Notes under the pieces: generated by a model
Databases searched by the model: none
Seen by the model: the letters and a program-made list of their open reading frames with translations, nothing else
What the model was told of the DNA's origin: nothing
Shown: positions 1 to 15,248 of the stretch, piece by piece
Position numbering within the stretch: position 1 is the first letter of the stretch
Layout of the letters: the number at the start of each line of letters is the position of its first letter
Source of the DNA: a virus
IMG/VR virus record: IMGVR_UViG_3300032217_000665
Span: 1 to 22,529 of that record
Direction: 5' to 3' (one strand)
DNA: 22,529 bases
Position numbers and translations under genes: made by a program

Positions 1-966
1 GTTTGGTGTTACAAGTGTTGGTGTGTTAGCAAAAACAAGTGCTCCAGTACCAGTCTCATCTGAAATTACTCCAGCAAGTTCTGATGATGAAGTTGCTGCA
101 AAAGCACTTAACTTATTATTTGTAAGAGCAACAGTACCTGTAGCATCTGGGAAAGTTACTGTACGGTCAGCAGTTGGGTCTGTAACTGTAAGTGTTGTCT
201 CAAACGCATCAGCGGTTGCACCTTCAAGAACAATTGAACCATCTGAAAGTGTAAGTCCTGAAATTACTGGACTTGTAAGTGTCTTGTTTGTAAGTGTCTG
301 TGTATCAGTTGTACCAACAATTGCGCCAGAAACACCGTGTGTTGATGTAAGACCTGCGTGTGTTGAAACATATCCTGAAGCAGTTGATTCAGCATTTGTT
401 TGCGCTGTTCCTGCTGCACCGTATGCATCATAAGTATTTGGTGTTACTTTAATTTCACCAGTTGAGTCTGTATATGTAAGGCCAGTTCCAACAGAGTTTC
501 CTACTGCGTCTTGTGCTCTTTCATCTGTAAAGTAAAGGTTTGTACCTTCTTCAATAACAGTTGTTGTAATTGCATCTACTGCAGAAGTAATATCTGAAGT
601 AAGTGCTACTGTACCAGTTGCGTCTGGAAGTGTAATTGTGCGATCTGCTGTTGGGTCTGTTACTGCAAGAGTTGTTTCGTAAGCATTTGCTGTTGCACCT
701 TCAAAACTAATGCTTTCTCCAAAAACACCAACTGCTGCTGGGTCTGACCACTGAACGCCATATGTTGCACCTGACGCTGCTGTGAGGACCTGTCCGTTGG
801 TTCCAACGCCAAGACGTGCTACTGCATCATCTGCGCTACCTACAATTAAATCACCCTTAGCATCTACAACGCCTGCTGTGATTACATTCTTGCCGTTAAC
901 TGTTGCTGTTGAACCTTCAACGACCAAACCATTCTTTAATCTAAAATCTTTATTTACTGTTGCCAT
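1..966 (-). CDS. Long tail fibre / virion structural protein, C-terminus beyond window
   Basis: The reading frame is open from ATG at 966 to the left edge (322 codons, no stop), so the gene is cut by the window. An AAGGAG ribosome site lies 7 bases before the ATG. The low-complexity Ala/Thr/Gly/Val-rich protein has the phage-fibre phrases GDLIVGSADDAVARLGVG (residues 38-55) and TQTLTNKTLTSP (222-233). A module of about 35 residues occurs twice (about 89-123 and 248-282), each copy containing TDPTADRT and PDATGTVALT. These phrases are common in tail fibre or virion proteins of environmental phages. It is probably the last gene of the tail operon, 13 bp after the preceding gene. A role in host contact is inferred from family and position. 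Confidence 0.8.
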   Translation of the reverse strand, partial: MATVNKDFRLKNGLVVEGSTATVNGKNVITAGVVDAKGDLIVGSADDAVARLGVGTNGQVLTAASGATYGVQWSDPAAVGVFGESISFEGATANAYETTLAVTDPTADRTITLPDATGTVALTSDITSAVDAITTTVIEEGTNLYFTDERAQDAVGNSVGTGLTYTDSTGEIKVTPNTYDAYGAAGTAQTNAESTASGYVSTHAGLTSTHGVSGAIVGTTDTQTLTNKTLTSPVISGLTLSDGSIVLEGATADAFETTLTVTDPTADRTVTFPDATGTVALTNNKLSAFAATSSSELAGVISDETGTGALVFANTPTLVTPN

Positions 967-979
967 TTTTTCTCCTTAG

Positions 980-1426
980 TTATGCCTTCAAACCAGTACG
1001 CATATAGCGCAAGGTTATAGGGGTTATTCCACCCACTGGAATTACAGACAGTGAAACTGTATTCCCTGCCTTAGACACGGAGATGGTGCCAATATTCCCA
1101 TCATTGTCCATAATGTTATATTCGCTAACAGAAATATCAGTTCCGTCAACTAATATGCTTATCTCTGAAGAATAAAATTTATTATCTCCTCCAGAAGTCT
1201 TTTTAATTGAGACAGTGTATTTTACTGATCTCCATTCACTTGCTAAAAAGTTATCAAAAACAGTTGAGTTTTCAATTCCATTAATTGTTGACTCGTTATT
1301 ACCAGCAGAGCCAAGATCTGTTGCCTGTGCTGATGCAGTATCAATCAAATCTTCATAATTTGCTTGAGTTGGTCTATCTCCCGTTTGAAACAGGGCCTTT
1401 ACACTTGATAATGATATTTTAGCCAT
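980..1426 (-). CDS. Putative phage tail-associated protein
   Basis: 148 residues. The N-terminus carries LFQTGDRPTQANYEDLIDT (about 13-31), a helical segment of a kind seen at the start of small phage tail-fibre proteins. The rest is rich in Ser, Thr, Val and Ile and looks beta-structured (TDISVSEYNI, SVSLSVIPVGG). There is no signal peptide or membrane segment. No Shine-Dalgarno sequence precedes the ATG. Instead an extended -10 (TGATATAAT) ends 6 bases before it, so the transcript is probably leaderless. It lies directly upstream of the long fibre gene, which fits a fibre-attachment or structural role. Exact function is not recognised. Confidence 0.7.
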   Translation of the reverse strand: MAKISLSSVKALFQTGDRPTQANYEDLIDTASAQATDLGSAGNNESTINGIENSTVFDNFLASEWRSVKYTVSIKKTSGGDNKFYSSEISILVDGTDISVSEYNIMDNDGNIGTISVSKAGNTVSLSVIPVGGITPITLRYMRTGLKA

Positions 1427-1432
1427 AACTGA

Positions 1433-1441
1433 ATTATATCA
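1433..1441 (-). promoter_or_regulatory. Extended -10 promoter for leaderless gene at 1426
   Basis: On the minus strand the sequence reads TGATATAAT and then TCAGTT before the ATG. The expected start point falls at or next to the start codon. No good -35 is visible. It matches the TGN-TATAAT form at 2099, 12741, 14515, 15742, 15821 and 16314. Confidence 0.55.
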
Positions 1442-1458
1442 TAATTTATTTAATTAGT

Positions 1459-1683
1459 TTAAAGTATCCAGTTGCTAACACCAATAACAGCAATACCAAT
1501 TCCTGGAGGATTTGTAGAAGAATAACCTTCAATTCCTATATTAGTAAAACGAATTCTAAATGGTAAAACTTCATTAATTTTAACTGAACCATATTGTTCT
1601 TTAATTGCAATTAGTGGATAACTATATGAATCAATTAACTTAGCACCATGAATGCTATCATCAATTATGACAGCAGTAGCCAT
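1459..1683 (-). CDS. Small conserved phage protein, unknown function
   Basis: 74 residues, with no Cys pair, signal peptide or clear membrane helix. The sequence is beta-rich with a Gly/Pro-rich centre (STNPPGIGIAVIGVSNW near the C-terminus). Its ATG overlaps the TAA of the upstream gene by one base (TAATG), so the two are probably translationally coupled. A GAGGATG sequence about 12 bases upstream may act as ribosome site. Position between a BppU-like protein and fibre genes suggests a minor tail component. This is an inference from context only. Confidence 0.65.
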   Translation of the reverse strand: MATAVIIDDSIHGAKLIDSYSYPLIAIKEQYGSVKINEVLPFRIRFTNIGIEGYSSTNPPGIGIAVIGVSNWIL

Positions 1684-2090
1684 TAGTTTGTTACATCCTC
1701 AAGGATGATCATGCTTCCCTGAGCAACTGTCCAAACCTTAGTAGGTTGTGATAATTCAATATCAAAAATATCTCCTGTATTTAACAGTGAAGATTCACCA
1801 GATGTTAATGAAACTGTAAACTCTCCGTTACCGTCAAATTCTGATGCTGACGGAAATAATGTTAAAATTGGTGTTGCATCGTCTGTCATAAATGGGGTTA
1901 CTTGTAAAGAATTTGGTCTTTTAATTTCCATTTTAATTGTCCAATCAACAATAACAAGAGGATCTTTATTATCGTCTGTTACATATACCCTAAAAGAGGC
2001 TGTATCTCCCCTTACAACGGTCCAGGATATCAACGGAGGTTTTTGCCCTACATCGTATGAACTTGCGCCTTGACCTCTAAAAGTTGCCAT
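1683..2090 (-). CDS. BppU-like small tail (baseplate) protein, RGDT motif
   Basis: About 135 residues. It contains ISWTVVRGDTASFRVYV near the N-terminus, followed by alternating beta segments. This resembles the N-terminal domain of baseplate upper proteins (BppU type), where an RxGDT turn begins the fold. Two other proteins here share the phrase: 15338-15733 (IQWTVVRGDT) and 14143-14499 (YYRGDTAEF). ATG at 2090 is chosen because a TGC-TATAAT extended -10 at 2099-2107 would start the RNA almost exactly there. An in-frame ATG at 2096 would lie only two bases after the -10. Its stop overlaps the next start. Likely a tail-tip or fibre-adapter component. Confidence 0.7.
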   Translation of the reverse strand: MATFRGQGASSYDVGQKPPLISWTVVRGDTASFRVYVTDDNKDPLVIVDWTIKMEIKRPNSLQVTPFMTDDATPILTLFPSASEFDGNGEFTVSLTSGESSLLNTGDIFDIELSQPTKVWTVAQGSMIILEDVTN

Positions 2091-2098
2091 AATCATCT

Positions 2099-2107
2099 AT
2101 TATAGCA
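2099..2107 (-). promoter_or_regulatory. Extended -10 promoter (TGCTATAAT), leaderless
   Basis: The minus strand reads TGCTATAAT, then AGATGATT, then ATG at 2090. It restarts leftward transcription after the bidirectional terminator at 2820-2858. The -35 region is only a T-run. Confidence 0.55.
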
Positions 2108-2161
2108 CTATCTGTCATTAAAAAAATAATAAAAATATTTTTTTGACTTATGCGTAGCAAT

Positions 2162-2191
2162 TTGACTTAAAACCCAAAAACATGTTATACT
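2162..2191 (+). promoter_or_regulatory. Promoter of the lysin gene, with 5' leader hairpin
   Basis: TTGACT (2162-2167), an 18-bp spacer and TATACT (2186-2191) preceded by TG (TGTTATACT). The expected start is about 2198. The transcript would open with a 6-bp hairpin, AACACC (2199-2204) with GGTGTT (2211-2216). This is the only rightward promoter with a downstream gene in the first 16 kb. Confidence 0.75.
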
Positions 2192-2238
2192 TGGTAGTAA
2201 CACCTACCAGGGTGTTGTTGTTTTCTAAGGAGGAAACT

Positions 2239-2814
2239 ATGAAAAATGATCAAAAATTTCTAATAGGGGTACTCGCAACTGTGCTTGGTTTGACTATGAT
2301 TATGAATAGGGCTAATGCTTTATCTACCGAAAATAATTTGAGTAAAACTGGCGTATCTGCTACATCAACCGCTCAGGCGGTTTTTTTGGTTTCTAGACCA
2401 AAAAATATTACACATCTAACAAAGAATGCTGATACTTTATTAAAATATCAAAATTCAACAAAATTAACAGATAGACAATTAAAAGAACTTCTTTCTGCTG
2501 TTGGTTTTCAAGGCAAGCATTTGGCAGAGGCTTGGGCAGTAGCAAAAAAAGAAACTCACGGAAACCCATTAGCCTTTAATGGTAATGAAAAAACTGGTGA
2601 TGCTTCTTTTGGTTTATTTCAAATAAATATGTTAAGAGATCTTGGACCAGAAAGAAGGGCTAAGTTTGGTCTTAATTATAATGCTGATTTATTAAATCCT
2701 GTATTAAATGCACAGGTTGCCTACTATATGAGCGATGGTGGCACTAACTGGTCTTCTTGGCACGGAATAACTCCAAAGACTAAAGAACTAATAGTCCAGT
2801 TCTACAAAAATTAA
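2239..2814 (+). CDS. Lysozyme/transglycosylase-like endolysin (SLT fold), with signal peptide
   Basis: 191 residues. Start chosen at 2239, where AAGGAGG lies 6 bases upstream; an in-frame ATG at 2182 overlaps the promoter. Residues 6-23 form a hydrophobic segment followed by ANA (25-27), which looks like a Sec signal peptide or anchor. The C-terminal domain (about 78-191) has the soluble lytic transglycosylase pattern: KKETHGNP with a likely catalytic Glu105, GLFQIN (125-130), and NPVLNAQVAYYMS with GTNWSSWHG. It should cleave peptidoglycan glycan strands, for lysis or for entry. It is the only rightward gene among the late genes, has its own promoter, and contains an intrinsic-terminator hairpin at 2367-2387. 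Family call is strong; the exact bond cleaved is not known. Confidence 0.85.
   Translation: MKNDQKFLIGVLATVLGLTMIMNRANALSTENNLSKTGVSATSTAQAVFLVSRPKNITHLTKNADTLLKYQNSTKLTDRQLKELLSAVGFQGKHLAEAWAVAKKETHGNPLAFNGNEKTGDASFGLFQINMLRDLGPERRAKFGLNYNADLLNPVLNAQVAYYMSDGGTNWSSWHGITPKTKELIVQFYKN
2367..2387 (+). terminator. Intrinsic terminator-like hairpin inside the lysin coding sequence
   Basis: AACCGC (2367-2372), loop TCAG, GCGGTT (2377-2382), then an uninterrupted T-run to 2387. It has the full form of an intrinsic terminator and points in the direction of the gene. It falls at about codons 43-50, between the signal peptide and the catalytic domain. Confidence 0.6.
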
Positions 2815-2819
2815 TAAAA

Positions 2820-2858
2820 ATAAAAAAATGCCCTCCTAGAAATAGGGGGGTATTTTTA
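2820..2858. terminator. Bidirectional intrinsic terminator between convergent genes
   Basis: An 11-bp stem, with G-T pairs, spans 2828-2853 around a GAAA tetraloop (2839-2842). It has T-rich tails in both directions. It closes the rightward lysin gene and overlaps the 3' end of the leftward GT32 gene, ending the glycan operon. Confidence 0.85.
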
Positions 2859-3515
2859 TATACTTTCAGTTTTCCAAGATTTATACGATGAGTCAAAAAT
2901 TCCACCATTACCTGCATAGTAGTGTTCAATTGAGTCTTGGTGAATTATCTTTGCATCATCACCAACAAATTCTATAAAACCATCTTGTGTATTTTTTAGA
3001 GTTTTATTAATTGAATCAGTAAAAATAATATATCCTGTTTCTTTAATTTCATAATCTATAATATTGCTATATTGTATATTTTTGCAGTATTGATCTTTGA
3101 TATCATTTAATATATTTGTTAAAAATATGCTTTTAGGCTCTGAAGCAAATATTGATTGCGTATACCCATCTGTATCTGGTTCAATAGAAACTACAAACTT
3201 AGAACTAATATCTAGCCAACTTTCAATTGGTTTCTTGCATAACATATCTAAATCAGAGTATAGTCCTCCATATAGATATAGACACATATATCTCCATAGA
3301 TCTGATCGTAAAACATCTAACTTGTAAGACTTGTATATTTGATACCATTCTTCTCCAAAATTATTCTTTACAATCAATTCCCTTTTTTCTTTAGAACAAT
3401 ATTGATATTCCCATTCTGGATTTAAACTTTTCCAAGAGTCAATAAGTTGTTTTGCCTTATCCGATAAATCTTTATAGTCTGTCTCATACGTTTGCCAAAT
3501 AATTTTAGGTATCAT
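2856..3515 (-). CDS. Glycosyltransferase family 32 (OCH1-like sugar transferase)
   Basis: 219 residues. Starts IPKIIWQTY with NPEWEYQYC near residue 32. The core is KLDVLRSDLWRYMCLYLYGGLYSDLD, split here as residues 65-90, where DLD at 88-90 is the metal-binding DXD of GT32-type enzymes. These transfer a sugar from a nucleotide donor to a glycan. The length suits a single-domain bacterial or viral member. No membrane segment, so probably cytosolic. It is the last gene of the nine-gene operon and overlaps the methyltransferase stop by 4 bp. Likely substrates are a phage virion glycan or host surface glycan, which is inferred from context. Family call is strong; donor and acceptor are unknown. 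Confidence 0.85.
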   Translation of the reverse strand: MIPKIIWQTYETDYKDLSDKAKQLIDSWKSLNPEWEYQYCSKEKRELIVKNNFGEEWYQIYKSYKLDVLRSDLWRYMCLYLYGGLYSDLDMLCKKPIESWLDISSKFVVSIEPDTDGYTQSIFASEPKSIFLTNILNDIKDQYCKNIQYSNIIDYEIKETGYIIFTDSINKTLKNTQDGFIEFVGDDAKIIHQDSIEHYYAGNGGIFDSSYKSWKTESI

Positions 3516-4141
3516 TTTATTCCTAGTTCATAATCATATGTAAATATATAATCTTTTGTATTATATTGCATTGGTATACCAGTAAACCTTGTAAGTCCAA
3601 CAATATGATTTATTTCTGAAATATTTTTAATAATTTCAATGTGCTCATATTCATTATTTTCAAAAGATGTTTTTATAAAGTTAAATGTTCTTTCATTTGC
3701 AGTCCAAATAATATAAGCATTATTATTTAAAAGTTGTTTAATTTTTATAACTGTATTTTCTATATCATTAAAAGATAAATGTCCAAAAAAACCAACTGCT
3801 AATAAAAGGTCTGCTCTAAAGTTATCATAAGTTTTTATAAATCCAGCATCGGCTGATACTGCTTTAATATTATACATGTTATGAGTAAATATATATTGTT
3901 TTGCTAAATTAATTGATTCTTGATCACTATCTACTAATAAAACATTATTATAATTTAAATTATTTTCTAATATAGTTTCTAGGATATCTTTTCCTTCTCC
4001 AGAGCATATGCTTAAGACATTTGGAGTATCTAATAATTTAAAACAATTTAAAATATTATTTTTTATAATTTTTAACCTTTTATTTAAATGAGACTCTTTA
4101 TTATTATATTCCTCATTCCAGAATCGCCAACCTGTCTTCAT
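3512..4141 (-). CDS. Class I SAM-dependent methyltransferase
   Basis: 209 residues. Motif I of Rossmann methyltransferases is visible as NVLSICSGEGKDIL (41-54). The acidic residue closing strand 2 is in VLLVDSDQES (67-76). A later strand reads ADLLLAVGFFGHLS. These bind S-adenosylmethionine. The target cannot be read from sequence. Located between a radical SAM enzyme and GT32, with 4-bp overlaps to both, it probably methylates a sugar or glycan intermediate. Very AT-rich, with many Asn and Ile codons. Confidence 0.75.
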   Translation of the reverse strand: MKTGWRFWNEEYNNKESHLNKRLKIIKNNILNCFKLLDTPNVLSICSGEGKDILETILENNLNYNNVLLVDSDQESINLAKQYIFTHNMYNIKAVSADAGFIKTYDNFRADLLLAVGFFGHLSFNDIENTVIKIKQLLNNNAYIIWTANERTFNFIKTSFENNEYEHIEIIKNISEINHIVGLTRFTGIPMQYNTKDYIFTYDYELGIK

Positions 4142-5130
4142 ATATTAATACTTGATGACAAGGGTGGGTTAACTCCCTCATCCCAAACTGCTCTAAAGCA
4201 ACTAGTACATATTCCACTATATGCTTTTTTAATTGCATCTTGTCTTTCTTGACTATTCCAAATTTCTTTAATTGTTTTATTGTTTATATTATCATAAGTG
4301 GTTTCATAACTAAAGTCTGCACAGCAAAGATATACATTTCCAGTTGCTGATATAAATAATTCTTGATCTGGATATTTGTTTCCACAACCAATTACTTTTC
4401 CTTTTTGATTTTGTTTGATAGCACTTTGGTTTGATATAATTTTAAGTTCTGAAAGAATATTGGTTCTATCTGATAAGTTATTTCTTAAAGAAACCATAAA
4501 TTTTGGAAACATTGCTTGCATTTTATTTACAATTCTTAGATGCTCTCCTTCTGAATAAAATGGTGCATCTTCTAAAACTTCCATCCATCCACCATTTTCT
4601 ATTTTTGCTTCTGGGCTTATTCCATTTACAAGGATCATAAGTTGTTCGCCCTTAAAGGTATCTGAAAGAATGTCGCTTGCATAGTGAAGGTTGTTTATTA
4701 ATTTATCAAACAATTTTGGATGAAATCCAGTAAATTTACTCCACTGTTCTTGTTCTATTGATGGGATATTAAGAATTACATCTGTAACTACATCACTATA
4801 GTCTTTTATTAAATCAGTTTTATCTATTGTTAAATTTACCCCATTAGAAAAAATATACATTTTAATATTATATTTTCTATGAAGATCTAACATTTCTTTA
4901 AAATATGGATAAAGTAAAGTTTCGTTATAGTGTATTGGATTGTTTATAATATCAATATTTGGATCAACAAAATCGCCTCTACCATCGTCAATTTGTTTTA
5001 AAATATTCTCCATAGTTTCAAGAGACATTGTTCCACGATTTTCTTTTGGGTTTCCTAGGTAAGCGACTGGACAAAACCAACATTTAGCATTGCAAATGCC
5101 ATTTGGATCTATGTTTATGTGTTTAATCAT
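4138..5130 (-). CDS. Radical SAM enzyme with SPASM-like C-terminal domain (copy 2)
   Basis: 330 residues from ATG at 5130. A GTG six codons upstream is possible, but the ATG aligns with the start of the paralogue at 6023-7006. The CX3CX2C cluster motif, Cys13, Cys17 and Cys20 in NGICNAKCWFC, binds the 4Fe-4S cluster that cleaves SAM. Downstream are FSNGVNLT and LNIPS, usual barrel elements. The C-terminus has further Cys sites (IGCGNKY, NVYLCCADF, GICTSCF), as in SPASM domains that hold extra Fe-S clusters. SPASM enzymes modify peptides or other substrates; here the glycan neighbours suggest sugar chemistry or a modified virion component. Overlaps the epimerase by 8 bp and the methyltransferase by 4 bp. 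Confidence 0.85.
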   Translation of the reverse strand: MIKHINIDPNGICNAKCWFCPVAYLGNPKENRGTMSLETMENILKQIDDGRGDFVDPNIDIINNPIHYNETLLYPYFKEMLDLHRKYNIKMYIFSNGVNLTIDKTDLIKDYSDVVTDVILNIPSIEQEQWSKFTGFHPKLFDKLINNLHYASDILSDTFKGEQLMILVNGISPEAKIENGGWMEVLEDAPFYSEGEHLRIVNKMQAMFPKFMVSLRNNLSDRTNILSELKIISNQSAIKQNQKGKVIGCGNKYPDQELFISATGNVYLCCADFSYETTYDNINNKTIKEIWNSQERQDAIKKAYSGICTSCFRAVWDEGVNPPLSSSINI

Positions 5131-6019
5131 TATTTTTAATCCATTCACCTAATTGAGTTTTTGGTTCCCAGCCAAGGATATACTTTGCTTTTTCTATATT
5201 GGAAAGAATTGACCTGGACTCTCCTGGTCTTTGTGGTATATTAATTGTCTTGTAATTAAAAAACTTTGCTATTTCATTTACAGAATAACTTTTGCCTCCG
5301 CCAATATTAAATACTTGACCAATATATTTACTATCTACGTCTTTTGTTGCTGCAAGAATATTTGCCTCAACTACATCTCCAACATATGTAAAATCTCTAG
5401 TTTGTTCACCATCTCCAACAATAGTTAATGGCATTTTATTTTGTTTTTGATTTTTAAATGTTCCAATGACTGGAGCATAAATACCTCTTGATGGTTGGCG
5501 ATCACCATAGACATTGAAGTATCTTAAAGTAATTGTTTCAAGTCCATATAAATCAAAATATGTTTTGCATAATGTTTCTGCACAGACCTTAGATGTTGAA
5601 TATGGTGTCAGGCAGTCGGTTGGCTGTGTTTCAATATTAGGAACTGGATTTCTACCATATGATGAAGATGTTGATGAAAAAACTACTCTTTTAACTCCTG
5701 CTTGTCTAGCACACTCTAAGACAGTTGCAGTGCCTAATGCATTAACTCTAACAGTTTCTACTGGATGATCAATAGTTCTTTGTATTCTAGCCATGGCTGC
5801 CAGATGAAAAACATAGTCAACATTATCATATAATTCTCTAGTATTTACATAATCACAGATATCTCTTTTATAGTTTTGTGCTTTTTCATTCCAATGAAAT
5901 TCATTATTTGCTACTGCAGATTCATTATCAATTACCACTACATCATATCCAAGATCAATTAAACAATCAACTAGAGTTGATCCAATAAATCCTGCTCCAC
6001 CTGTAACCAATGCTTTCAT
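5123..6019 (-). CDS. NAD-dependent nucleotide-sugar epimerase/dehydratase (extended SDR)
   Basis: 298 residues. The NAD-binding GxxGxxG is at 7-13 (GGAGFIGS), with Asp31 closing strand 2 as expected for NAD(H). HLAAMA follows at about 72. The catalytic triad is SSTSSSYG (115-122) and YSTSK (Tyr140, Lys144). RYFNVYGDRQ and RPGES match UDP-glucose/UDP-glucuronate 4-epimerases and related dehydratases. It should change the stereochemistry of a UDP- or similar sugar in the cytosol and so feed the glycosyltransferases in this operon. Exact donor sugar is not predictable. It lies between the two radical SAM paralogues, which suggests they act on the same pathway or arose by duplication around it. 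Confidence 0.88.
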   Translation of the reverse strand: MKALVTGGAGFIGSTLVDCLIDLGYDVVVIDNESAVANNEFHWNEKAQNYKRDICDYVNTRELYDNVDYVFHLAAMARIQRTIDHPVETVRVNALGTATVLECARQAGVKRVVFSSTSSSYGRNPVPNIETQPTDCLTPYSTSKVCAETLCKTYFDLYGLETITLRYFNVYGDRQPSRGIYAPVIGTFKNQKQNKMPLTIVGDGEQTRDFTYVGDVVEANILAATKDVDSKYIGQVFNIGGGKSYSVNEIAKFFNYKTINIPQRPGESRSILSNIEKAKYILGWEPKTQLGEWIKNND

Positions 6020-6022
6020 TTT

Positions 6023-7006
6023 TTACTCCCAAATCGCATACTTGCAACTTCTACAAAAATTATTATATGATTTTTTAATCATATCTTGTCTTTCTGAACT
6101 TTCCCAAATTTCCTTAATTGTTTTATCTTTTATATTAATATATGCTGTCACAAAATCATAATCGTGACAACATAAAATTATATCACCGTTGGCGTTTATA
6201 TGCAGCCATTCTTCTGCACGGCTTAAGCCAAAGGATTCTCCTCCAGCACAGGCAACAACCTTTTTGCTAAAATTTTGTGCTTGAATCTTTATAATATCGT
6301 AATTGCTTAATACATCATTTTGTTCTAGTTTTCCAGATCTATCATTTAAATGTATATCTGAAAATACACCTGATCTTGGAAAAAGTTTTTTAAATTCTGC
6401 AAGAGATTTAGCAACATCTCCACTATCTTTATCATAGTTTAAGTGTGGTGCCTTTTTTAGAAGTTTTACTGCTCCGCCATTTTCAAAAAAAGATTCTTCC
6501 TGAACTCCATTAACTTGAATTCCAAACATCATTCCAACTTTAGAAAATTCTTCTTCTGCATATTGTAAATTTTGTATTAATTTATCAAACATCTTTACAT
6601 TAAAGCCAGTATATGCTGCCCATTGTTCTGGGAATGCTGAGGGAATGTTTAGTGTTATATGATTAACTACATTGGGGTACTGCTTTATAAAATCAATTTT
6701 ATCTTTAGTCAAGGTTGTTCCATTGCTAAATAAAATTGTTGTTAGGCCATATTTGTGATAAGCCTCAATCATTTTTTTAAAATCTGGGTATAAAAGAACT
6801 TCATTATAGTGAGCATTAATTACAATGTTAAAGTTAGGATCAACAAAATCTCCCCTACCTTTATGCAACTGATCTAAGACATTAATTAATACATTTATGT
6901 CCATATTTTTTCTTCCAATTACTGGATTTCCACCATATGCTACAGGACAATACCAACACTTGGCATTGCAAAGTCCATTTGGATCTAATTCAAGAACTTT
7001 AATCAT
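6023..7006 (-). CDS. Radical SAM enzyme with SPASM-like C-terminal domain (copy 1)
   Basis: 327 residues. Cys13, Cys17 and Cys20 form CX3CX2C in NGLCNAKCWYC, the radical SAM 4Fe-4S site. The C-terminal Cys sets (VVACAGGES, DIILCCHDYD, NFCRSCKYAIWE) look like a SPASM domain. It is a clear paralogue of the enzyme at 4138-5130. They share CPVAY-GNP, KGRGDFVDPN/DGRGDFVDPN, YNE-LLYP, LNIPS, FDKLI-NL-YA and IKEIW-S-ERQD. The start overlaps the sulfotransferase stop by one base. Reaction unknown; role in a sugar or peptide modification is inferred from neighbours. Confidence 0.85.
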   Translation of the reverse strand: MIKVLELDPNGLCNAKCWYCPVAYGGNPVIGRKNMDINVLINVLDQLHKGRGDFVDPNFNIVINAHYNEVLLYPDFKKMIEAYHKYGLTTILFSNGTTLTKDKIDFIKQYPNVVNHITLNIPSAFPEQWAAYTGFNVKMFDKLIQNLQYAEEEFSKVGMMFGIQVNGVQEESFFENGGAVKLLKKAPHLNYDKDSGDVAKSLAEFKKLFPRSGVFSDIHLNDRSGKLEQNDVLSNYDIIKIQAQNFSKKVVACAGGESFGLSRAEEWLHINANGDIILCCHDYDFVTAYINIKDKTIKEIWESSERQDMIKKSYNNFCRSCKYAIWE

Positions 7007-7848
7007 TAGTAATATCTTTCTATAAAAATACCTTTGTCATTTAATTTTTTTAACATAAAATTATATTTTTCATCTATTTTGTTTGCAATATCTAAATTTT
7101 TCCATTTACCAAGATCAACACTATCTGTGGATATTTGATTATTAAAAAATGCAATCATTTCTAGATTTTCTTTTATTGAAAGAAAAGACAATATTTTTTC
7201 TTTTTCTACATTTTTTGATACAAAATCTTCCAACCTTATATTTAAATAAGATTTTTCTGGAATTTTTGATAATGATTCAAAAGAATCTATAACTCTATTG
7301 TACCACCAGTCTAAGGCATCTAATTGATTATTTCTTTTTTCTAAATTCCAAAAATTTTTCATTTGAAAAATTGAATATGCCGTATCTCTTCCGTCTCTAA
7401 TCATATTAATAAATTTAGCATCTTCCCATATTTCAAAAATATCGTCAGCATACTTAATATTAGATGGGGTTGAGTCTCCAAGGTATAAGGAATTTTTATT
7501 AAATGTTTTTTGATTTAAAAATAAATCTTTATAAAAAACATCTATTGCTAGTTTATTATTTTGAATAAACGTATTAATTAATTTATTTGTCATCTGTTTT
7601 ATATTTTCAACATCTATATTTGAATAAATGCCAGTTGTTTTATCTGTTGGATTTAACCAGGCATCTTCTAAATAGAATAAAAAACTATTAATGTCTTTTG
7701 TTTTATATAAATCAAGCAACCCATATTGCTCGGTTAATATTCTTAGTTCTATTGGATCACTTGCATGGACTAGGTTACTTTTACCAAGATACTCTAGTAA
7801 GATTGTTGTTCCACTTCTTCCAGTGCCACCAATAAAAAGAGGTATCAT
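7006..7848 (-). CDS. PAPS-dependent sulfotransferase family protein
   Basis: 280 residues. The N-terminal IGGTGRSGTTILLEYL (6-21) is the 5'-phosphosulfate loop of sulfotransferases. FINMIRDGRDTAYS (146-159) is the 3'-phosphate binding strand and helix, with Arg151 and Asp155. LYLGDSTPSN (121-130) is also typical. The enzyme would move a sulfate group from PAPS to a hydroxyl or amine of a glycan or protein. No signal peptide. Neighbours overlap by 4 bp and 1 bp. A second, more divergent sulfotransferase-like gene is at 8560-9234. Carbohydrate sulfation is inferred. Confidence 0.83.
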   Translation of the reverse strand: MIPLFIGGTGRSGTTILLEYLGKSNLVHASDPIELRILTEQYGLLDLYKTKDINSFLFYLEDAWLNPTDKTTGIYSNIDVENIKQMTNKLINTFIQNNKLAIDVFYKDLFLNQKTFNKNSLYLGDSTPSNIKYADDIFEIWEDAKFINMIRDGRDTAYSIFQMKNFWNLEKRNNQLDALDWWYNRVIDSFESLSKIPEKSYLNIRLEDFVSKNVEKEKILSFLSIKENLEMIAFFNNQISTDSVDLGKWKNLDIANKIDEKYNFMLKKLNDKGIFIERYY

Positions 7849-8567
7849 TTTTGAAAAAACTCTCTACGAAAATTATTTGTAGTGCTCATTTGTTCAATTT
7901 CTTTCCAAAATTTATTTCTATATATCTGTCTTAGATCATCGTCATATTTTAAAATCATATTATCGTCTGTGATTTCAGCATAATATAAAATTTCTTGTAG
8001 TGTATATGTAATCATTTGATTATTTCCACAATAAATATTTAATCTATTCCAGTAGTCTTCGTCTCCACTGTATCCTATATCATCAAAATATCCTAAAACC
8101 TCAAAGGCTTTTTTATTAAAAAAAGCATGGGCTAGGTTTACCATTGGTGTAAAGGGTTCTCCATACCAACTTGGGGGAGTGTTTCCAAATCTTAATTCTA
8201 AATCTTGTACTCCTAAAACCTTGTCATTCTCTTTAAACGTATTGACTATTTTTTCAAACCGATCTGGTTGTGAAAAATCATCTGCATCATGTGTTGTGTA
8301 TATATCATATAAACCAGACTCCATAAACTTTATTCCTGTATTTTTACTATAAAAACATCCACTATTTTTAACATTATTCACAATTGTAACTCTTGGATCG
8401 TATAAAAATTTTTCTGCTTCTTTTAAAGAGTTATCAGTAGATGCATCATTCACAATTATTAAAGAAAAATTTGAATATGTTTGTTCCAGTATACTATTAA
8501 TTGCTCGTTTAAGAAGTCTTGCTTCATTGTATACTGGCAAAGACACTAATATTTTTAAATTATTCAT
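7845..8567 (-). CDS. Glycosyltransferase family 2 (GT-A fold)
   Basis: 240 residues from ATG at 8567. An in-frame TTG at 8579 is possible but has no better ribosome site. VSLPVYNEARLLKRAINSIL (8-27) and IIVNDASTDNS (37-47) are the nucleotide-binding start of GT2 enzymes. THDADD (92-97) contains the metal-binding DXD, and GYSGDEDYWNRL near residue 165 is the usual ED acid/base region. It transfers a sugar from a nucleotide donor with inversion. No membrane helix is seen, so cytosolic action is likely. The start overlaps the preceding gene's stop by 8 bp. Confidence 0.87.
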   Translation of the reverse strand: MNNLKILVSLPVYNEARLLKRAINSILEQTYSNFSLIIVNDASTDNSLKEAEKFLYDPRVTIVNNVKNSGCFYSKNTGIKFMESGLYDIYTTHDADDFSQPDRFEKIVNTFKENDKVLGVQDLELRFGNTPPSWYGEPFTPMVNLAHAFFNKKAFEVLGYFDDIGYSGDEDYWNRLNIYCGNNQMITYTLQEILYYAEITDDNMILKYDDDLRQIYRNKFWKEIEQMSTTNNFRREFFQK

Positions 8568-9234
8568 ATTTATACCCAAAATATTCTAACTCCCAGGACC
8601 ATTCTTGTTTGATTAATTTGATATGGTTGTCTAAAAAAATATCATGATAGTGTATCTGTTTTGGTCTAAATGATTTTTCTTGTATATCTAGCGTAATTTT
8701 TGGAAGATTGTGCAAAGGAAGAATTTTATTTATTTCTTTTTCTATTCCATTTTCATATCTTAAAAATTCATTTATTTGAATAGTTCCCTCTTTAGATGTA
8801 TATAAATGCCTATTGCTCTTAAGCCATCCCCAGCCTAACTCTCCATTAAAATATTTAAACAAAAGTTTTGATTGTTCTTTATCTGTTAATTCTAACCATT
8901 TAGTATTTAATCCTTCAAATTTTAATCTATGAAAAAAATGAGACAAAACCATTTCAAAAGGATTTCTTATAAAGATATAAGATTTTACTCCAGATAAAGA
9001 TATTTTATTATTTATTTCAGAATATGACATGTGGTTATAAAAACCTTCATAATTTCTTGGATTATAATCTTTATAGATAGGCTCATCACTTAATTTCCAG
9101 GCTGGATCGTCTGATGTCTTTGGAGTAATTATTGCATCTGCTGGCATTATCCTAGATAGTGGCACTTCTAATGAGGTTCCACCAACTTTTTGATTTTTAA
9201 GCAATAAAAAATTATTTTTTAATGAAAGAATCAT
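8560..9234 (-). CDS. Sulfotransferase family 2-like protein
   Basis: 224 residues. NQKVGGTSLEVPLS (14-27) corresponds to the PKxGGTS 5'-phosphosulfate loop of carbohydrate sulfotransferases of the Sulfotransfer_2 type. YIFIRNPFEMVLSHFFHRL (86-104) is the 3'-phosphate site (vRnPfer-vS-y pattern). The C-terminal part is Lys/Glu-rich and less conserved. It probably sulfates a carbohydrate. There is no clear Shine-Dalgarno before the ATG. The gene begins 15 bp after the unknown gene at 9250-9576. Confidence 0.75.
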   Translation of the reverse strand: MILSLKNNFLLLKNQKVGGTSLEVPLSRIMPADAIITPKTSDDPAWKLSDEPIYKDYNPRNYEGFYNHMSYSEINNKISLSGVKSYIFIRNPFEMVLSHFFHRLKFEGLNTKWLELTDKEQSKLLFKYFNGELGWGWLKSNRHLYTSKEGTIQINEFLRYENGIEKEINKILPLHNLPKITLDIQEKSFRPKQIHYHDIFLDNHIKLIKQEWSWELEYFGYKYE

Positions 9235-9249
9235 TTCGTATCGGTTTTA

Positions 9250-9576
9250 TCATAGAGGCTTAATGTCTAATATTTCGCAAATATCGGAAATTAACTTAAC
9301 TGGATCTCCATTGCTATCTTTAGACTCATATACCTTCATCTTTGCCAAGGTAACTTTTGCATTTAATTCATTATATTTATGCTTTGCAGCAATAAATTCT
9401 TCTAGCAAACTTTCTACATTTTTAATAGTAGAATTAATATAAATAATATCATTTTTATAATTTTTTGCTTTAAAATAAATTAATTTTGACTCATCATAGT
9501 TTTCTGGTTCTTTTTCAATACCAAAATCTAAAATACCTCCAGTAATTATGCTATCTACGGATGTGTTATCTATCAT
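9250..9576 (-). CDS. Unknown protein, first gene of the glycan-modification operon
   Basis: 108 residues, preceded by a good ribosome site (AAAGGAG, 6 bases from ATG). It is acidic at the N-terminus and helical from about 48 to 85, with a Leu/Ala/Lys pattern (VESLLEEFIAAKHKYNELNA) that could form a coiled coil. It ends CEILDIKPL. No Cys pair, signal peptide or membrane helix. I do not recognise the family. As first gene before the sulfotransferase, glycosyltransferase and radical SAM genes it could be a scaffold or substrate for the modification enzymes, or a small virion protein. None of these is shown by the sequence. Confidence 0.6.
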   Translation of the reverse strand: MIDNTSVDSIITGGILDFGIEKEPENYDESKLIYFKAKNYKNDIIYINSTIKNVESLLEEFIAAKHKYNELNAKVTLAKMKVYESKDSNGDPVKLISDICEILDIKPL

Positions 9577-9605: not shown

Positions 9606-10304
9606 TTATTCAAAAGTCTTTTTTATCCATATATTTTTTTTATACCATCCAGTTGTTGAATTAAGTGTTGTTTGAATAACATTAAAAGATTTTTGCAATA
9701 GTGTGTTGTCTTTTTTGCTTGACCAATTTTCTCTTTTAAAAGGAAGAATTTGTATAATTGGAGTTCCCATTGGAATTATTCCTTCAAAGTCTTGTTTAAT
9801 AAAAAATGGAATATTACCAGGTGTTAATAAAAACTCTCCATCAACAATTCCTGAAGGAACAACAAATGGTAAATCAAATCTATTAAAAGGATGTGTAATA
9901 AGAGCACTATATCCTTTTGGAAAAAGAATTACATTTTTTGTTTTAAATGCAAATTGTTGGGCAGAACATCCTATTGGAACTGGAATATTGCTATTTTCCT
10001 TATTATTCCTTATTTCTACATAAATTGAATTTTGATCTGTCCAAGAAATATAAGAATTTCCATTTACTATTTCTACTGCAAGATCTACTGCAAGAGAAAT
10101 CATATATCCAGATGTAAATGATTCTTGAAAAGGTGTACACATTTTAAATGACGATGTTGAAAGTGGAAGTCTTTTTATATTTTTTGATATACTCTTTGTT
10201 GTTTTATACCAATCTGGCACAAAAGATTTTGCTGGTTTTACATCTGGATACCACTCTTGCTCTGAAGCATGAAACAATGTTCTTTGTTTATTTTTTTTAA
10301 ACAT
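9606..10304 (-). CDS. Conserved phage protein of unknown function, paralogue of 16724-17437
   Basis: 232 residues with a GGAGGAA ribosome site. Shared with the protein at 16724-17437 are CTP followed by S-TSGY (about residues 56-68), the phrase KGYSA-IT, and the C-terminal GFEGII/DFEGII, GTP--Q, then PFKRE-W. The overall pattern, a beta-rich core then a GTP--Q--PFKRE close, is seen in hypothetical proteins of environmental phages. The closing part recalls the end of dUTPase/dCTP-deaminase-like trimers, but no catalytic residues of those enzymes can be placed, so I do not assign that activity. It follows 10305-10862 with no gap. Confidence 0.7.
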   Translation of the reverse strand: MFKKNKQRTLFHASEQEWYPDVKPAKSFVPDWYKTTKSISKNIKRLPLSTSSFKMCTPFQESFTSGYMISLAVDLAVEIVNGNSYISWTDQNSIYVEIRNNKENSNIPVPIGCSAQQFAFKTKNVILFPKGYSALITHPFNRFDLPFVVPSGIVDGEFLLTPGNIPFFIKQDFEGIIPMGTPIIQILPFKRENWSSKKDNTLLQKSFNVIQTTLNSTTGWYKKNIWIKKTFE

Positions 10305-10862
10305 TTATTCCTCCACCGTATTTTTTAATAAAATTATTTCAATTTGTTTTTTAAAGTTATTCTCAAGTATAGCATACTCTCCAATTTCAAAATCATCATC
10401 TAATAGCGTTCTCATAAATGGACAAAATACTCTTGCCTGCCTCATGCACTCTAAATGATGTGGATAACTATCTGAATAAACACGATGTCTTGGATGTCCA
10501 TCTATAATTGCCCCTGGAATGCTTCCATCTATAGAGGGAGGTAGAGTTTGTGTTTTCCATCTAATTACAATATCTGTATCTTTAAATCCAAGCCCACAAT
10601 ACCCACATAAATTATTTTCTCTAGCCTCAATTTCATGTTCTACATTAACTGATAAAAGTTTATTAAAATTTTCATCAAAAAAAGGAATTGACTGCCAAGG
10701 AATAGGAACAATTTTGTGTAAATATCTTTTAAACCTGCTATTGAATGCAAAAGGTTTTCTAAAATAATAAATATTTGGTGGAGTTATATAAGGTCTTGGT
10801 AAACCTTTGGTATTGCCAGTTTCACCATTCCAGATAAAGCCTTCTTTATAATAGTTTGGCAC
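10305..10862 (-). CDS. Putative zinc-binding phage protein
   Basis: 185 residues with a GTG start. An in-frame TAA lies directly before it and GGGG 8 bases upstream can act as ribosome site. A CGYC pair (about residues 85-88) and a later HHLEC with FCPF (about 136-149) could bind one zinc ion in a treble-clef-like arrangement, with DGHPRHRVYSDSYPHHLEC between. Pro and aromatic residues are frequent in the first 60 residues. The next gene starts directly after the stop. Function unknown; it pairs with the 9606-10304 protein, so the two probably act together. Confidence 0.65.
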   Translation of the reverse strand: MPNYYKEGFIWNGETGNTKGLPRPYITPPNIYYFRKPFAFNSRFKRYLHKIVPIPWQSIPFFDENFNKLLSVNVEHEIEARENNLCGYCGLGFKDTDIVIRWKTQTLPPSIDGSIPGAIIDGHPRHRVYSDSYPHHLECMRQARVFCPFMRTLLDDDFEIGEYAILENNFKKQIEIILLKNTVEE

Positions 10863-10893
10863 TTATTAACCCCACACCAACTAATTTATTTTT

Positions 10894-11331
10894 TTATTCT
10901 GGATATTCTACAGTAATTGGATCTGATGCTTTTGTTGGTACTGATACAATTTCTTCTCCAGTTACTGGATTGAAAGGAACCCAAGTATTATTTACTAATT
11001 TATATTTTTTTCCATCATCTGGCATAGGTTCTGCAAATACTACTGGGTCTATCCATTCTTGATTATCTTCATCCCATGTATAAACTATTCCGTCATCTGG
11101 CATTGCAATTGGTGCTTGCCAAACCAAATCTTTATTTAAAGACCAAGATAAATGTGGTTGAGGTTTAACAAACTTATTGGTTTTTTTAATATATGGACTG
11201 CCAATAGTTACGTCAACTCCTTCTTCTATTAAAACACATGTTTCTCCAGAAGATGTTTCAGCAATTTCTTTTGTTTCAGCAACAATAATGTTACTAACAA
11301 AGTTGTCTTTTATAACTGCATAATTAGCCAT
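10894..11331 (-). CDS. Small tail-fibre-associated phage protein
   Basis: 145 residues. MANYAVIKDNFVSNIIVAETKE, read as two halves around residue 11, followed by SGETCVLI, is a start seen in small proteins next to tail fibre genes of T4-like and environmental phages. PMPDDGIVYTWDEDNQEW and PMPDDGKKYKLVNNTW form an internal repeat (about residues 77-117) with a W residue at each end. No membrane segment. A TGGAGA sequence is the likely ribosome site. It follows the poly-glycine adhesin by 23 bp. A role in fibre assembly or the virion is inferred. Confidence 0.65.
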   Translation of the reverse strand: MANYAVIKDNFVSNIIVAETKEIAETSSGETCVLIEEGVDVTIGSPYIKKTNKFVKPQPHLSWSLNKDLVWQAPIAMPDDGIVYTWDEDNQEWIDPVVFAEPMPDDGKKYKLVNNTWVPFNPVTGEEIVSVPTKASDPITVEYPE

Positions 11332-11354: not shown

Positions 11355-12410
11355 TTATGCAAACCGCAAAACATAAACTACGCCTGATGTACCAAGTGCT
11401 CCACCTTTGCCATTGTATGTGGTATTTCCACCGCCACCACCACCGCCACCTGCTCCATAGCCAGAACCAACGCTTCCTGCAAGACCTGGGTTTGAGTATG
11501 TTGCTGGTGCATATGGACCACCTGCGCCACCTGCGCCACCAGTTCCAACTCCAGATCCACCGCCTGAACCACCTGTTTTTCCTGGATATCCAGAATATCT
11601 ACTAGTATAAGTATATCCATCGGGACCACCACCGCCACCACCACCAGTTGTTCTACCTGCTATAATTCCATTTGCATAAATTACTGGAAGTGATGGTGAA
11701 TATGCAGAGCCATTACCTGGGGTTCCACCAGTGCTAGCACCTGCACCGCCATTTGCTCCGCCTACTCCTGCTGCACCTGGATTACCAGCGCCACCGCCAC
11801 CACCACCAGTTGCTGTAACGCCAGCAAATGTTGTAGATCCTCCAGTTCCACCAGATCCATAAGGACTTCCTGCTGTTCCACCTGCGCCAATTGTTACTGC
11901 CATTCCTGATGATAAAGCAGACATTCCGTAGGCTGCATAGCCAGAACCGCCTCCGCCACCAGATGCTGCATATGCACTATATCTTCCACCTGCGTTTGCA
12001 GCGCCACCGCCACCTCCGCCTGCTCCAAAACAAACAAAATATCCAAATCCAGAGCCAGCATATGTTCCAGTTGTAGTAATGGTATCAATAGTTCCGCTTG
12101 CTGTTGGTAGTGCTGATGCAGTTAGTGTCATCAAAATTGTAATGCTTGAACCTGCTGTTAAATAATAAACAATTCTAGTTGCTGTAAATGTAATATTAAG
12201 GTTAGTTCCAGTAGTACCAGATAAAGTTGTTACATATGTGCTACCGTTATAAAAATCCATATATACTGTTCCGCCACCAGAAAATGAAAGAGTGTACGCT
12301 CCTGGTTTGATTACTGCGGTAGCATTATATGGATAGTTGGCAGTTGTTGCTACAAAAGATTGACCTGATGAGGTGCTTGATGATGCTATAGGAAAAACTG
12401 TTGATGCCAT
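11355..12410 (-). CDS. Poly-glycine-rich tail adhesin / receptor-binding protein candidate
   Basis: 351 residues. The first ~118 residues are Ser/Thr-rich and beta-structured. The rest, about 128-340, is dominated by Gly: many GGGGGG runs alternate with short Ala/Ser/Tyr/Asn/Pro loops, closing with GGALGTSGVVYVLRF. Such glycine-rich tail-tip proteins are common in phages. In S16 gp38 the Gly motifs fold as a polyglycine-II sandwich with variable receptor-binding loops between them. By analogy this is the host-recognition tip. The DNA is unusually GC-rich here because of GGN codons. It overlaps the upstream gene by one base and is followed by a small fibre-associated gene, which fits an adhesin cluster. 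Confidence 0.75.
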   Translation of the reverse strand: MASTVFPIASSSTSSGQSFVATTANYPYNATAVIKPGAYTLSFSGGGTVYMDFYNGSTYVTTLSGTTGTNLNITFTATRIVYYLTAGSSITILMTLTASALPTASGTIDTITTTGTYAGSGFGYFVCFGAGGGGGGAANAGGRYSAYAASGGGGGSGYAAYGMSALSSGMAVTIGAGGTAGSPYGSGGTGGSTTFAGVTATGGGGGGAGNPGAAGVGGANGGAGASTGGTPGNGSAYSPSLPVIYANGIIAGRTTGGGGGGGPDGYTYTSRYSGYPGKTGGSGGGSGVGTGGAGGAGGPYAPATYSNPGLAGSVGSGYGAGGGGGGGGNTTYNGKGGALGTSGVVYVLRFA

Positions 12411-12718
12411 TATACGATCTCCACTCCGCTAATATGAAAATTAACTGCTGTATTTGATGCTCCACCTTTAATAGTCTTAGTTGTCTCAAGAACCTGTTTA
12501 ATATCAATATATGCAGTTGAGTTTGCTGCGATTGTTGAAGTGGTGTGTAATGCAACTGAGTCCAAAGCAATGGTAAACGTATAATCATTGCTTGATGTAT
12601 TAGTAACTGCAATATTCGTTACAATTGCAGTAGTTGATGCTGGAACTGTATATAGCGTCGTCGTTGTTGTTGTTGTTGCTGCTCCACGAAATAGAGCCTT
12701 ACTTGTAACTGTAGCCAT
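12410..12718 (-). CDS. Small beta-rich virion protein
   Basis: 102 residues. It starts with a Thr-rich segment including a TTTTTTT run (about 15-21), then VPASTTAIVTNIAVTNTSS, a beta-sandwich-like pattern common in small phage head or tail decoration proteins. There is a strong AGGAGG ribosome site and an extended -10 (TGTTATAAT) just upstream. Its stop overlaps the adhesin start by one base, so the two are probably coupled. A tail-tip or fibre component is likely; the specific role is not known. Confidence 0.65.
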   Translation of the reverse strand: MATVTSKALFRGAATTTTTTTLYTVPASTTAIVTNIAVTNTSSNDYTFTIALDSVALHTTSTIAANSTAYIDIKQVLETTKTIKGGASNTAVNFHISGVEIV

Positions 12719-12751: not shown

Positions 12752-13090
12752 TTATTGAGCACCCATAATGTTCATTATGTTATGATCGCTTACTGGGCTT
12801 ATCCATGTTGTACCATCATAAATTTGAAGTTCATTAACGTTATTTCCAAAAGAATCTTGTCTGACTATACAAAATGATCCACGAATTGGAACCGATATCG
12901 CTGTATCTCTTGAAGTAGGATTAAGAAAATTATTAATACCATTTTTACCAATAATAGATGCTAAAAATACATGGTCTCCTGCCCACTCATAGCCAGATCC
13001 AGTGTCTGCTTTTGCTGAAATTTCATACCAAGTATCATCTGCTGCGCTATAAACAAATCCTGGTCTAGGTACGGAACTAAATGATGTCAT
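12752..13090 (-). CDS. Small tail protein, unknown function
   Basis: 112 residues. PRPGFVYSAADDTWYEIS (about 8-25) and ELQIYDGTTWISPVS (about 87-101) are typical of short phage fibre proteins, where WY/TW segments close beta arches. No Cys pairs or membrane helix. The ATG overlaps the upstream stop (TAATG), with GGAG just before it. Part of the run of one-base-overlap tail genes from 14499 to 12752. Function is inferred from position. Confidence 0.65.
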   Translation of the reverse strand: MTSFSSVPRPGFVYSAADDTWYEISAKADTGSGYEWAGDHVFLASIIGKNGINNFLNPTSRDTAISVPIRGSFCIVRQDSFGNNVNELQIYDGTTWISPVSDHNIMNIMGAQ

Positions 13091-13572
13091 TAGGCTCCTA
13101 TCTGATTAAATGTAGAAGTTGTAGAATTATAAACATACATTTTTAGTGGACTAGAACCTTTTTGTACCCAAATCAAACCATTGGTTAAATTTTGTGTTGG
13201 GGCGGTAGTTGTATAAACCGATGTTGCTGCAAAATACCCAACAGATGACTGAGCATTTTTATCCATCCACACATATCCATTTGGAATACCAGTCATAAAT
13301 GAGGTAAAATCTGCTGCAGTTGGTGGCTCATTAGAAACTCTTGAAGAATCTCTTGCTGCTAACTCTAATGCAACCTGTGTTGTAATTTGATTTTGAAGAC
13401 TATTAAGTGTATATGCAATTGATGGATTTATAAGGTTTGCTGCATTTGTTTCTGCTATATCATAGTTATATGATCCATAATGGTATAAACGCAAAGCCTC
13501 TTGTATATCAGCATTATCAATAAGTGCTGGTATTTTTGTTGGTACTAAATTTCCTATATTTTCGGCTGCCAT
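13090..13572 (-). CDS. Tail fibre-related protein
   Basis: 160 residues. The N-terminal helix-rich part contains IPALIDNADIQEALRLYHYG (about 14-33) and SLQNQITTQVALELAARDSS, which may form a coiled coil or trimer stalk. The C-terminal part has NGYVWMDKNA and NGLIWVQKGSSPLKMYVYN, short beta arches like those of fibre heads. No clear ribosome site precedes the ATG; a TATAAA sequence lies about 12 bases upstream. Recognised only as a phage tail or fibre type protein. Confidence 0.65.
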   Translation of the reverse strand: MAAENIGNLVPTKIPALIDNADIQEALRLYHYGSYNYDIAETNAANLINPSIAYTLNSLQNQITTQVALELAARDSSRVSNEPPTAADFTSFMTGIPNGYVWMDKNAQSSVGYFAATSVYTTTAPTQNLTNGLIWVQKGSSPLKMYVYNSTTSTFNQIGA

Positions 13573-13585
13573 AATATTTTATCTT

Positions 13586-14499: not shown

Positions 14500-14514
14500 T
14501 ATTCCTCCTCAATT

Positions 14515-14523
14515 ATTATACCA
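14515..14523 (-). promoter_or_regulatory. Extended -10 promoter (TGGTATAAT)
   Basis: It sits between the collagen-like fibre stop (14524) and the BppU-like start at 14499. The predicted leader contains GAGGAGGAAT. The preceding sequence TTAA is shared with no clear -35. Confidence 0.5.
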
Positions 14524-15240: not shown

Positions 15241-15248
15241 GGAGATGC

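Follow-up and report, generated by a model that had tools for sequence, protein, structure and literature searches.

Phage-encoded glycosylation of virions is only just starting to be recognised. For the mycobacteriophages Che8 and Rita, phage glycosyltransferases have been proposed to act on the phage's own structural proteins (Freeman 2023, in the account given where PMC11256854 cites it). The cysC gene of phages, which encodes an adenosine 5'-phosphosulfate (APS) kinase, has been read as a sulfur-assimilation gene (PMC10914622; PMC9529941), and the function of phage sulfotransferases has been called unclear (PMC10580990). Among radical S-adenosylmethionine (SAM) enzymes, BtrN, a 2-deoxy-scyllo-inosamine dehydrogenase, oxidises an aminocyclitol and uses a four-cysteine auxiliary cluster (PMC9012708). 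Here we analyse a nine-gene cassette in the 22.5-kb virus record IMGVR_UViG_3300032217_000665 (positions 1 to 22,529, hereafter the window), in which a slot between tail genes brings fibre genes together with sulfotransferases and with radical SAM enzymes that are candidates for sugar editing. We infer both chemistry and target: with a probability of roughly 60%, a soluble pathway equips a virion fibre with a rare sugar and sulfates this sugar. The families of the parts are known; against the literature that we found, both their combination and the place where it occurs are new.

A conserved, interchangeable cassette in a variable tail slot

The nine open reading frames (ORFs; g1 to g9 in transcription order) run from 9576 to 2856, all on the minus strand, with successive gaps of +15, −20, −4, −1, +3, −26, −4 and −4 bases; the −20 and −26 overlaps become smaller if downstream ATG starts replace TTG 8579 and GTG 5148. 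An earlier note, made from the sequence alone, had described a tightly spaced nine-gene operon closed by a terminator, and each ORF was found at its expected place, with a strong 15-pair hairpin at the end (Table 1). This hairpin (2824-2857) probably also terminates the convergent gene at 2182-2814. The membership of the nine genes stands, but the start probably lies further upstream: as three co-directional genes (9606-10304, 10305-10862 and 10894-11331) lead into g1 with gaps of 29, 0 and 31 bases, the operon probably extends two to three genes beyond g1 (9606-11331).

The tail gene at 980-1426 of the window, used as query, retrieved more than 480 relatives, in which the gene order is u11, collagen-like u10, u9, u8, u7, a variable slot, a lysozyme-like gene, d1, d0 and a fibre gene. 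The cassette fills this slot in the window, in agreement with its earlier description as lying between tail genes. In relatives the slot holds fibre-like proteins, PF11397 glycosyltransferases (GTs), 2-oxoglutarate (2OG) oxygenases, epimerases or a different radical SAM enzyme. The slot of L260 (L and G numbers are our handles for related loci and contigs) encodes a PF11397 GT together with an epimerase and a (TPTPV)n protein, and that of L248 holds a glycine-rich protein whose MASTVFP start is similar to that of u4. In L252 (1386-7960), several 2OG oxygenase-like genes in a row, one of them Pfam-confirmed, occupy the same slot.

The cassette is also found in other, unrelated freshwater phages. 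In G001, a 129.5-kb WhiB-bearing actinophage-like contig, it is present minus one radical SAM gene and the methyltransferase, flanked by collagen-like and fibre-like genes, and nearly all genes outside it are unrelated to the window. The GC content of the cassette is 0.32 in G001, against 0.46 for that record, and 28% in the window, against 35–37% in the flanks. A search for cultured-phage relatives by tblastn of g5, g4 and g2 against 50,697 phage records gave no match. Since it is conserved in independent contigs, the cassette lies far beyond chance, and we conclude that it is a real, conserved and mobile or interchangeable unit.

Predicted enzymes of the operon

Proteins of the window were assigned to families by Pfam, PHROGs and NCBIfam profile scans, with curated cut-offs for Pfam. 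The domain identities given in the earlier note agree with Pfam, although the matches to Sulfotransfer_2 (g2) and to the methyltransferase family (g8) are weak. Two sulfotransferases are predicted. The first, g4, has both the 5'-phosphosulfate-binding (5'-PSB) P-loop and the 3'-phosphate-binding (3'-PB) motif of sulfotransferases that depend on 3'-phosphoadenosine 5'-phosphosulfate (PAPS). For g2, which scores so low against PF03567, the label is given because of its motifs KVGGTS and RNPxxxxLS: KVGG(T/S)SLE and R-x-P-x4-LS (RNPFEMVLS in g2) are invariant or nearly so across five homologues. A profile search of the PDB found no solved relative of g2.

The remaining enzymes are two predicted GTs (g3 and g9), a nucleotide-sugar epimerase (g6) and g8. 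Counterparts of g9 in L003, L006 and G001 are 64% identical to it, and the L003/L004/L006 cassettes have no counterpart of g8. For g1, the scans gave nothing above cut-off in Pfam and nothing in PHROGs or NCBIfam. No obvious membrane segment was seen in any product, and the families of the operon include no flippase, polymerase or polyprenyl(-phosphate) transferase. As the products look soluble, the cassette more plausibly glycosylates a phage protein in the cytoplasm than makes a lipid-linked host glycan.

The paired radical SAM enzymes

The two radical SAM enzymes, g5 (A-type) and g7 (B-type), are 45% identical and both contain the CX3CX2C motif. They had been called SPASM enzymes, a label that we replace: each has five cysteines after the core, of which four are invariant across 15 homologues (in g5, C253/C279/C318/C321 form the auxiliary-cluster region). 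A full SPASM domain, with seven cysteines and two auxiliary clusters, is ruled out by this count, and a C-terminal pattern of four conserved cysteines and a fifth, additional one indicates a single-cluster twitch domain. PF13186 matches twitch domains as well as SPASM.

A structure comparison, proposed in the earlier note, was made for g5. Its AlphaFold model (predicted local distance difference test, pLDDT, 89.5) has BtrN as the closest solved fold (Z 18.8, root-mean-square deviation 3.1 Å, 225 aligned residues, 19% identical), and in a profile search of the PDB BtrN matched at both ends (1.5e-12), with one other protein matching weakly. Neither Pfam nor NCBIfam scans found a peptide-recognition domain in g5 or g7.

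In a tree, A-type and B-type enzymes form separate clades, each with a support of 0.999. Type A occurs alone in L005 and L050, type B alone in L007 and G001/L063, and both together in the window, L003/L004 and L006; the L003 counterpart of g7 is 91% identical to it. As the clades are distinct and each type is found without the other in related phages, g5 and g7 are old, separable paralogues, and a recent duplication as the origin of the pair is ruled out. L054 (7978-10990) and L055 (7984-10990) each carry three genes of this radical SAM family in tandem.

Possible source of the sulfate donor

As the earlier note had observed, the window contains no sulfate-activating gene: no APS kinase was found in it. 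The consequence drawn there, that the host must supply PAPS, is not supported in so far as it means the host alone. In L050 and G001, an APS kinase gene and then a DUF2061 gene directly precede ST2-GT2-ST3-(epimerase)-rSAM-GT32 (ST, sulfotransferase; rSAM, radical SAM), and since these two relatives carry the kinase gene inside the cassette, phages can help to make PAPS. Their protein joins an APS kinase domain (PF01583 1.2e-16, above cut-off; best PDB matches all APS kinases) to an HxGH nucleotidyltransferase. This domain order is that of animal PAPS synthase, and the fusion is possibly a minimal PAPS synthase. ATP sulfurylase was not found in 20 records, so the host may still need to supply APS.

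Of 20 records with a radical SAM gene, 7 had both APS kinase and Sulfotransfer_3, 2 had only the one, 2 only the other, and 9 had neither (Fisher p 0.012). The two genes are separated by at most a few hundred bases in G005 and G006 and by at most about 1.3 kb in G007. Among 50 longer records with this APS-kinase family, 15 have a sulfotransferase candidate (4 of the g2 type and 11 of Sulfotransfer_3, the latter counted at E ≤ 0.001, of which 7 pass the cut-off when frame neighbours are included and the others are weak). PAPS reductase (PF01507) was found in 0/50, an absence that is weak evidence because the records are fragments. From these sequence neighbourhoods, a role of this kinase family in sulfation fits better than one in assimilation.

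The fusion occurs at L050 (3453-4208), L063 (5849-6598) and L137-L216 and is common in WhiB-bearing freshwater phages. A DUF2061 membrane protein gene lies within 2.5 kb of it in 68/80 loci, nearly always downstream. Genes for tryptophan halogenase-like flavoproteins were seen near the APS kinase gene in L179 (3067-4590) and 11 other APS-kinase loci.

Fusions and neighbours in the wider radical SAM family

Relatives of the radical SAM family were found in at least 120 viral contigs, and only a handful of cellular contigs showed comparable full-length similarity. In eight locus groups, the radical SAM domain is fused to an N-terminal GT8/glycogenin-like domain of predicted GT-A fold (model pLDDT 93.7; glycogenin Z 14.6, LgtC Z 14.5), and in L024 (6725-8590), an uncultured proteobacterial contig, to a PF11397 N-acetylglucosamine (GlcNAc) transferase (1.1e-61). 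As it is fused to two unrelated GT families, the radical SAM family probably works together with glycosyltransferases. The L024 fusion gene adjoins Tox-PAAR-like and DUF3540 genes.

Neighbouring genes agree with this. Across 60 viral locus groups, the 111 genes immediately next to the radical SAM gene include PF11397 (12), GT2 (7), GT32-like (4) and epimerase (4) genes, all nearly absent from a distant-gene control, and 2OG oxygenases are equally frequent in both sets. Other neighbour clusters that looked like tandem radical SAM genes are really glycosyltransferases, joined via fusion proteins.

In the same 60 groups, each of the 21 ORFs with a strongly Thr/Pro/Ser-rich tract is no more than 2.5 kb away from the radical SAM gene, compared with 0/726 ORFs further out (Fisher p 1.4e-9, which overstates independence, as some locus groups are related to one another). 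Many are directly upstream of a GT-radical SAM fusion. Their threonine tracts are encoded by mixed codons, which makes simple trinucleotide expansion less likely, and two of the products, those of L088 and L090, are recognised as structural components of the virion (phrog_14478, 1e-206 or better). Judged by composition, the Thr-rich and (TP)n neighbours look like mucin-like phage glycoproteins. Poly-threonine tracts (AAP/EPP-punctuated) or (TP)n tracts were seen in L068, L072, L077, L008, L011, L066, L080, L088, L090 and others, either immediately upstream of the GT-radical SAM gene or a short way further upstream. In L100, L101, L102, L104, L116 and related loci, a prolyl-hydroxylase-like 2OG oxygenase, a radical SAM enzyme and a PF11397 GlcNAc-transferase are encoded consecutively, several of these rows being flanked by (TP)n proteins; this may be a phage version of hydroxyproline glycosylation.

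Flanking genes and host

Genes of the u1 type stand beside or near a radical SAM gene in several loci, and in L050 and G001 the gene immediately before the APS kinase gene is of the u2 type. The phrog_7084 family of u1 has two paralogues in the window, 9606-10304 and 16724-17437, the second 26–29% related to a protein of haloarchaeal tailed viruses. WhiB, a marker gene for recognising actinophages (PMC10914622), is absent from the window fragment; because five large members of its lineage encode WhiB, the host of this freshwater tailed phage lineage is probably an actinobacterium.

Table 1 Features of the window, in order of position, with the evidence for each
Feature	Position	Strand	Evidence
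Downstream frame of slot: lysozyme-like gene (2182-2814, +), then d1, d0, tail fibre gene (−)	1-2814		Order kept in most relatives >9 kb; phrog_38058 3e-35
Hairpin terminator, probably bidirectional	2824-2857		Stem as in text, 4-nt loop, A/T tracts on both sides
g9, predicted soluble glycosyltransferase, Gly_transf_sug (GT32-like)	2856-3515	−	PF04488 6.9e-18; DxD motif (DLD, residue 88)
g8, SAM methyltransferase-like	3512-4141	−	Methyltransf_25 1.3e-5, below cut-off
g7, radical SAM/twitch enzyme B	4138-5148	−	PF04055 1.1e-8, above cut-off; CNAKCWFC; C255, C275, C314, C317
g6, NAD-dependent nucleotide-sugar epimerase/dehydratase	5123-6019	−	PF01370 3.1e-60; phrog_540 5.6e-84; GGAGFIG and YSTSK motifs
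g5, radical SAM/twitch enzyme A	6023-7006	−	PF04055 8e-12, above cut-off; CNAKCWYC
g4, PAPS-dependent sulfotransferase (Sulfotransfer_3)	7006-7848	−	PF13469 4.2e-20, above cut-off; GTGRSGTT (5'-PSB), RDGRDTAYS (3'-PB)
g3, predicted soluble family 2 glycosyltransferase	7845-8579	−	PF00535 (Glycos_transf_2) 1.5e-26; DxD motif (DAD, residue 98)
g2, probable second sulfotransferase (Sulfotransfer_2-like)	8560-9234	−	PF03567 only 0.028; conserved motifs
g1, 108-aa protein	9250-9576	−	No family
u1, phrog_7084 protein, probably same operon	9606-10304	−	phrog_7084 3.2e-32; 29-base gap to g1
u2, Cys-rich protein, probably same operon	10305-10862	−	0-base gap to u1
u4, glycine-rich fibre-like protein, candidate substrate	11355-12410	−	29% Gly, 13% Thr
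u5, small Thr-rich slot protein, candidate substrate	12410-12718	−	24.5% Thr; homologues in L003/L004
Upstream frame of slot: u7, u8, u9, u10 (collagen-like, 14524-15240), u11	13090-15733	−	Order kept in many relatives; tail fibre PHROGs

Discussion

Our preferred reading, a soluble pathway by which a virion fibre receives a rare, sulfated sugar, is built on observed gene content, conservation, the slot, family assignments, fusions and neighbourhoods. The cassette would be one swappable gene set in a variable slot for fibres and fibre modification, and its soluble enzymes would act in the host cytoplasm during infection and put an unusual sugar on a fibre-like protein of the phage. For the scheme itself we infer which sugar is made, in which order the steps run, what the radical SAM enzymes catalyse and which protein accepts the glycan. 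The g6 epimerase would make or interconvert a nucleotide sugar, and g3 and g9 would attach sugars to the protein and extend them to a short glycan. The BtrN-like g5 and g7 may each abstract a hydrogen atom and then oxidise (or epimerise) a position of the sugar ring, g8 may cap one position, and g4 and g2 would transfer sulfate from PAPS. Such a sulfated, edited glycan could change how the particle adsorbs, its surface charge or how it is recognised.

Several observations weigh against this. The earlier note had pointed to a search for the cassette beside tail genes of other phages; recurrence was found, and G001 repeats the fibre-gene setting, but the cassettes of L006 and L050 have a portal-like gene nearby and are not placed between fibre genes. 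The mucin-like neighbours belong to other radical SAM branches (35–41% identical), not to the A/B clade of the window, and the window itself has no mucin-like gene. The candidate substrates (u4, u5, u10 and the fibre) were picked by position and composition only, and u10 is weakened as a cassette-specific target, since this collagen-like gene is shared by most relatives, whether or not they have the cassette. In addition, the peptide-modifying radical SAM fold SkfB (Z 17.0) comes near BtrN in the comparison with g5, and the best PDB relative of g4 by profile is TPST1 (3e-13), so that protein sulfation is possible, the nearest solved relative being a protein-tyrosine sulfotransferase.

The earlier note had left open virion decoration or a change of host glycans; the first fits better than the second. 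As an agent of host-surface conversion, the cassette would alter a cell-wall glycan or exopolysaccharide of the host, for instance to exclude other phages. The GT2 enzyme g3 has weak GtrB-like PHROG matches (1e-7), cyanophage nucleotide-sugar epimerases are related to g6, and sulfated polysaccharides of bacteria exist (PMC11641403 and PMC11766843). We nevertheless consider it unlikely, because the products are soluble, the operon lacks a flippase, polymerase or polyprenyl-phosphate transferase, and the slot of relatives holds fibre-like proteins and modifying enzymes. The Gtr-type set for O-antigen conversion (flippase GtrA, polyprenyl GtrB, membrane Gtr) is not matched by this operon, which has no membrane-spanning product and shows GtrB likeness only weakly, and the radical SAM family adjoins mucin-like virion genes.

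Somewhat less probable still is a sugar-free modification of structural-protein amino acids by the radical SAM enzymes and sulfotransferases (tyrosine sulfation, or an oxidation like that of ribosomally synthesised and post-translationally modified peptides), with the GTs serving separately. TPST1, the SkfB-like folds and the 2OG oxygenases that often neighbour relatives would suit it, but the radical SAM domain is fused to two unrelated GT families, Pfam and NCBIfam scans show no domain for recognising peptides in g5 and g7, and the TPST1 alignment is mainly over the PAPS-binding region, which is common to all sulfotransferases. Small-molecule metabolism, whether a diffusible sulfated sugar compound or sulfur assimilation as an auxiliary metabolic module, has the published reading of phage cysC in its favour and is very unlikely given the reductase and sulfurylase results above, the 15 records with sulfotransferase candidates and the placement of the cassette among tail genes.

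A wider but doubtful extension suggests itself: freshwater phages may sulfate their own particles by a self-contained pathway, in which the APS kinase-HxGH fusion would make PAPS and radical SAM-edited, sulfated glycans would be placed on fibre or mucin-like proteins, the target being set by swapping slot cassettes. Much phage "sulfur-assimilation" cysC would then serve sulfation for virion decoration. This is a testable alternative to the assimilatory reading, and the mucin-like Thr/Pro proteins adjoining GT-radical SAM fusions are concrete candidate substrates. An incomplete literature search found no report of phage virion sulfation or of Thr-rich phage glycoproteins.

BtrN resembles g5 in its CX3CX2C motif, its four-cysteine auxiliary region and as the best solved match in fold and sequence; the window enzymes, in contrast, are phage-encoded and paired, g5 is only 19% identical to BtrN over 225 residues, and their relatives are fused or adjacent to glycosyltransferases. 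The Skp1 type of hydroxyproline glycosylation (PF11397 GlcNAc-transferase plus prolyl hydroxylase) has a likeness in related slots and loci that pair PF11397 GTs with 2OG oxygenases by Thr/Pro repeats, but these are in phages, include a radical SAM enzyme and form a parallel system, not the window cassette. Cyanophage epimerase and lipopolysaccharide-type clusters (P-SSM2, S-SKS1) contain relatives of g6 (64–67% DNA identity over part of the gene), whereas the phage reference set contains no radical SAM or sulfotransferase homologue of the window type. The cysC of freshwater phages in the COBRA study, which also covers whiB-bearing actinophages, likewise encodes APS kinase and was read there as assimilatory sulfate reduction (PMC10914622); here, the gene precedes sulfotransferases within a cassette, and PAPS reductase is absent from the records. 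The cassette goes beyond the proposed glycosylation of Che8 and Rita virions in having two sulfotransferases, an epimerase and putative radical SAM editing, joined in relatives by APS kinase, and its target would probably be the fibres.

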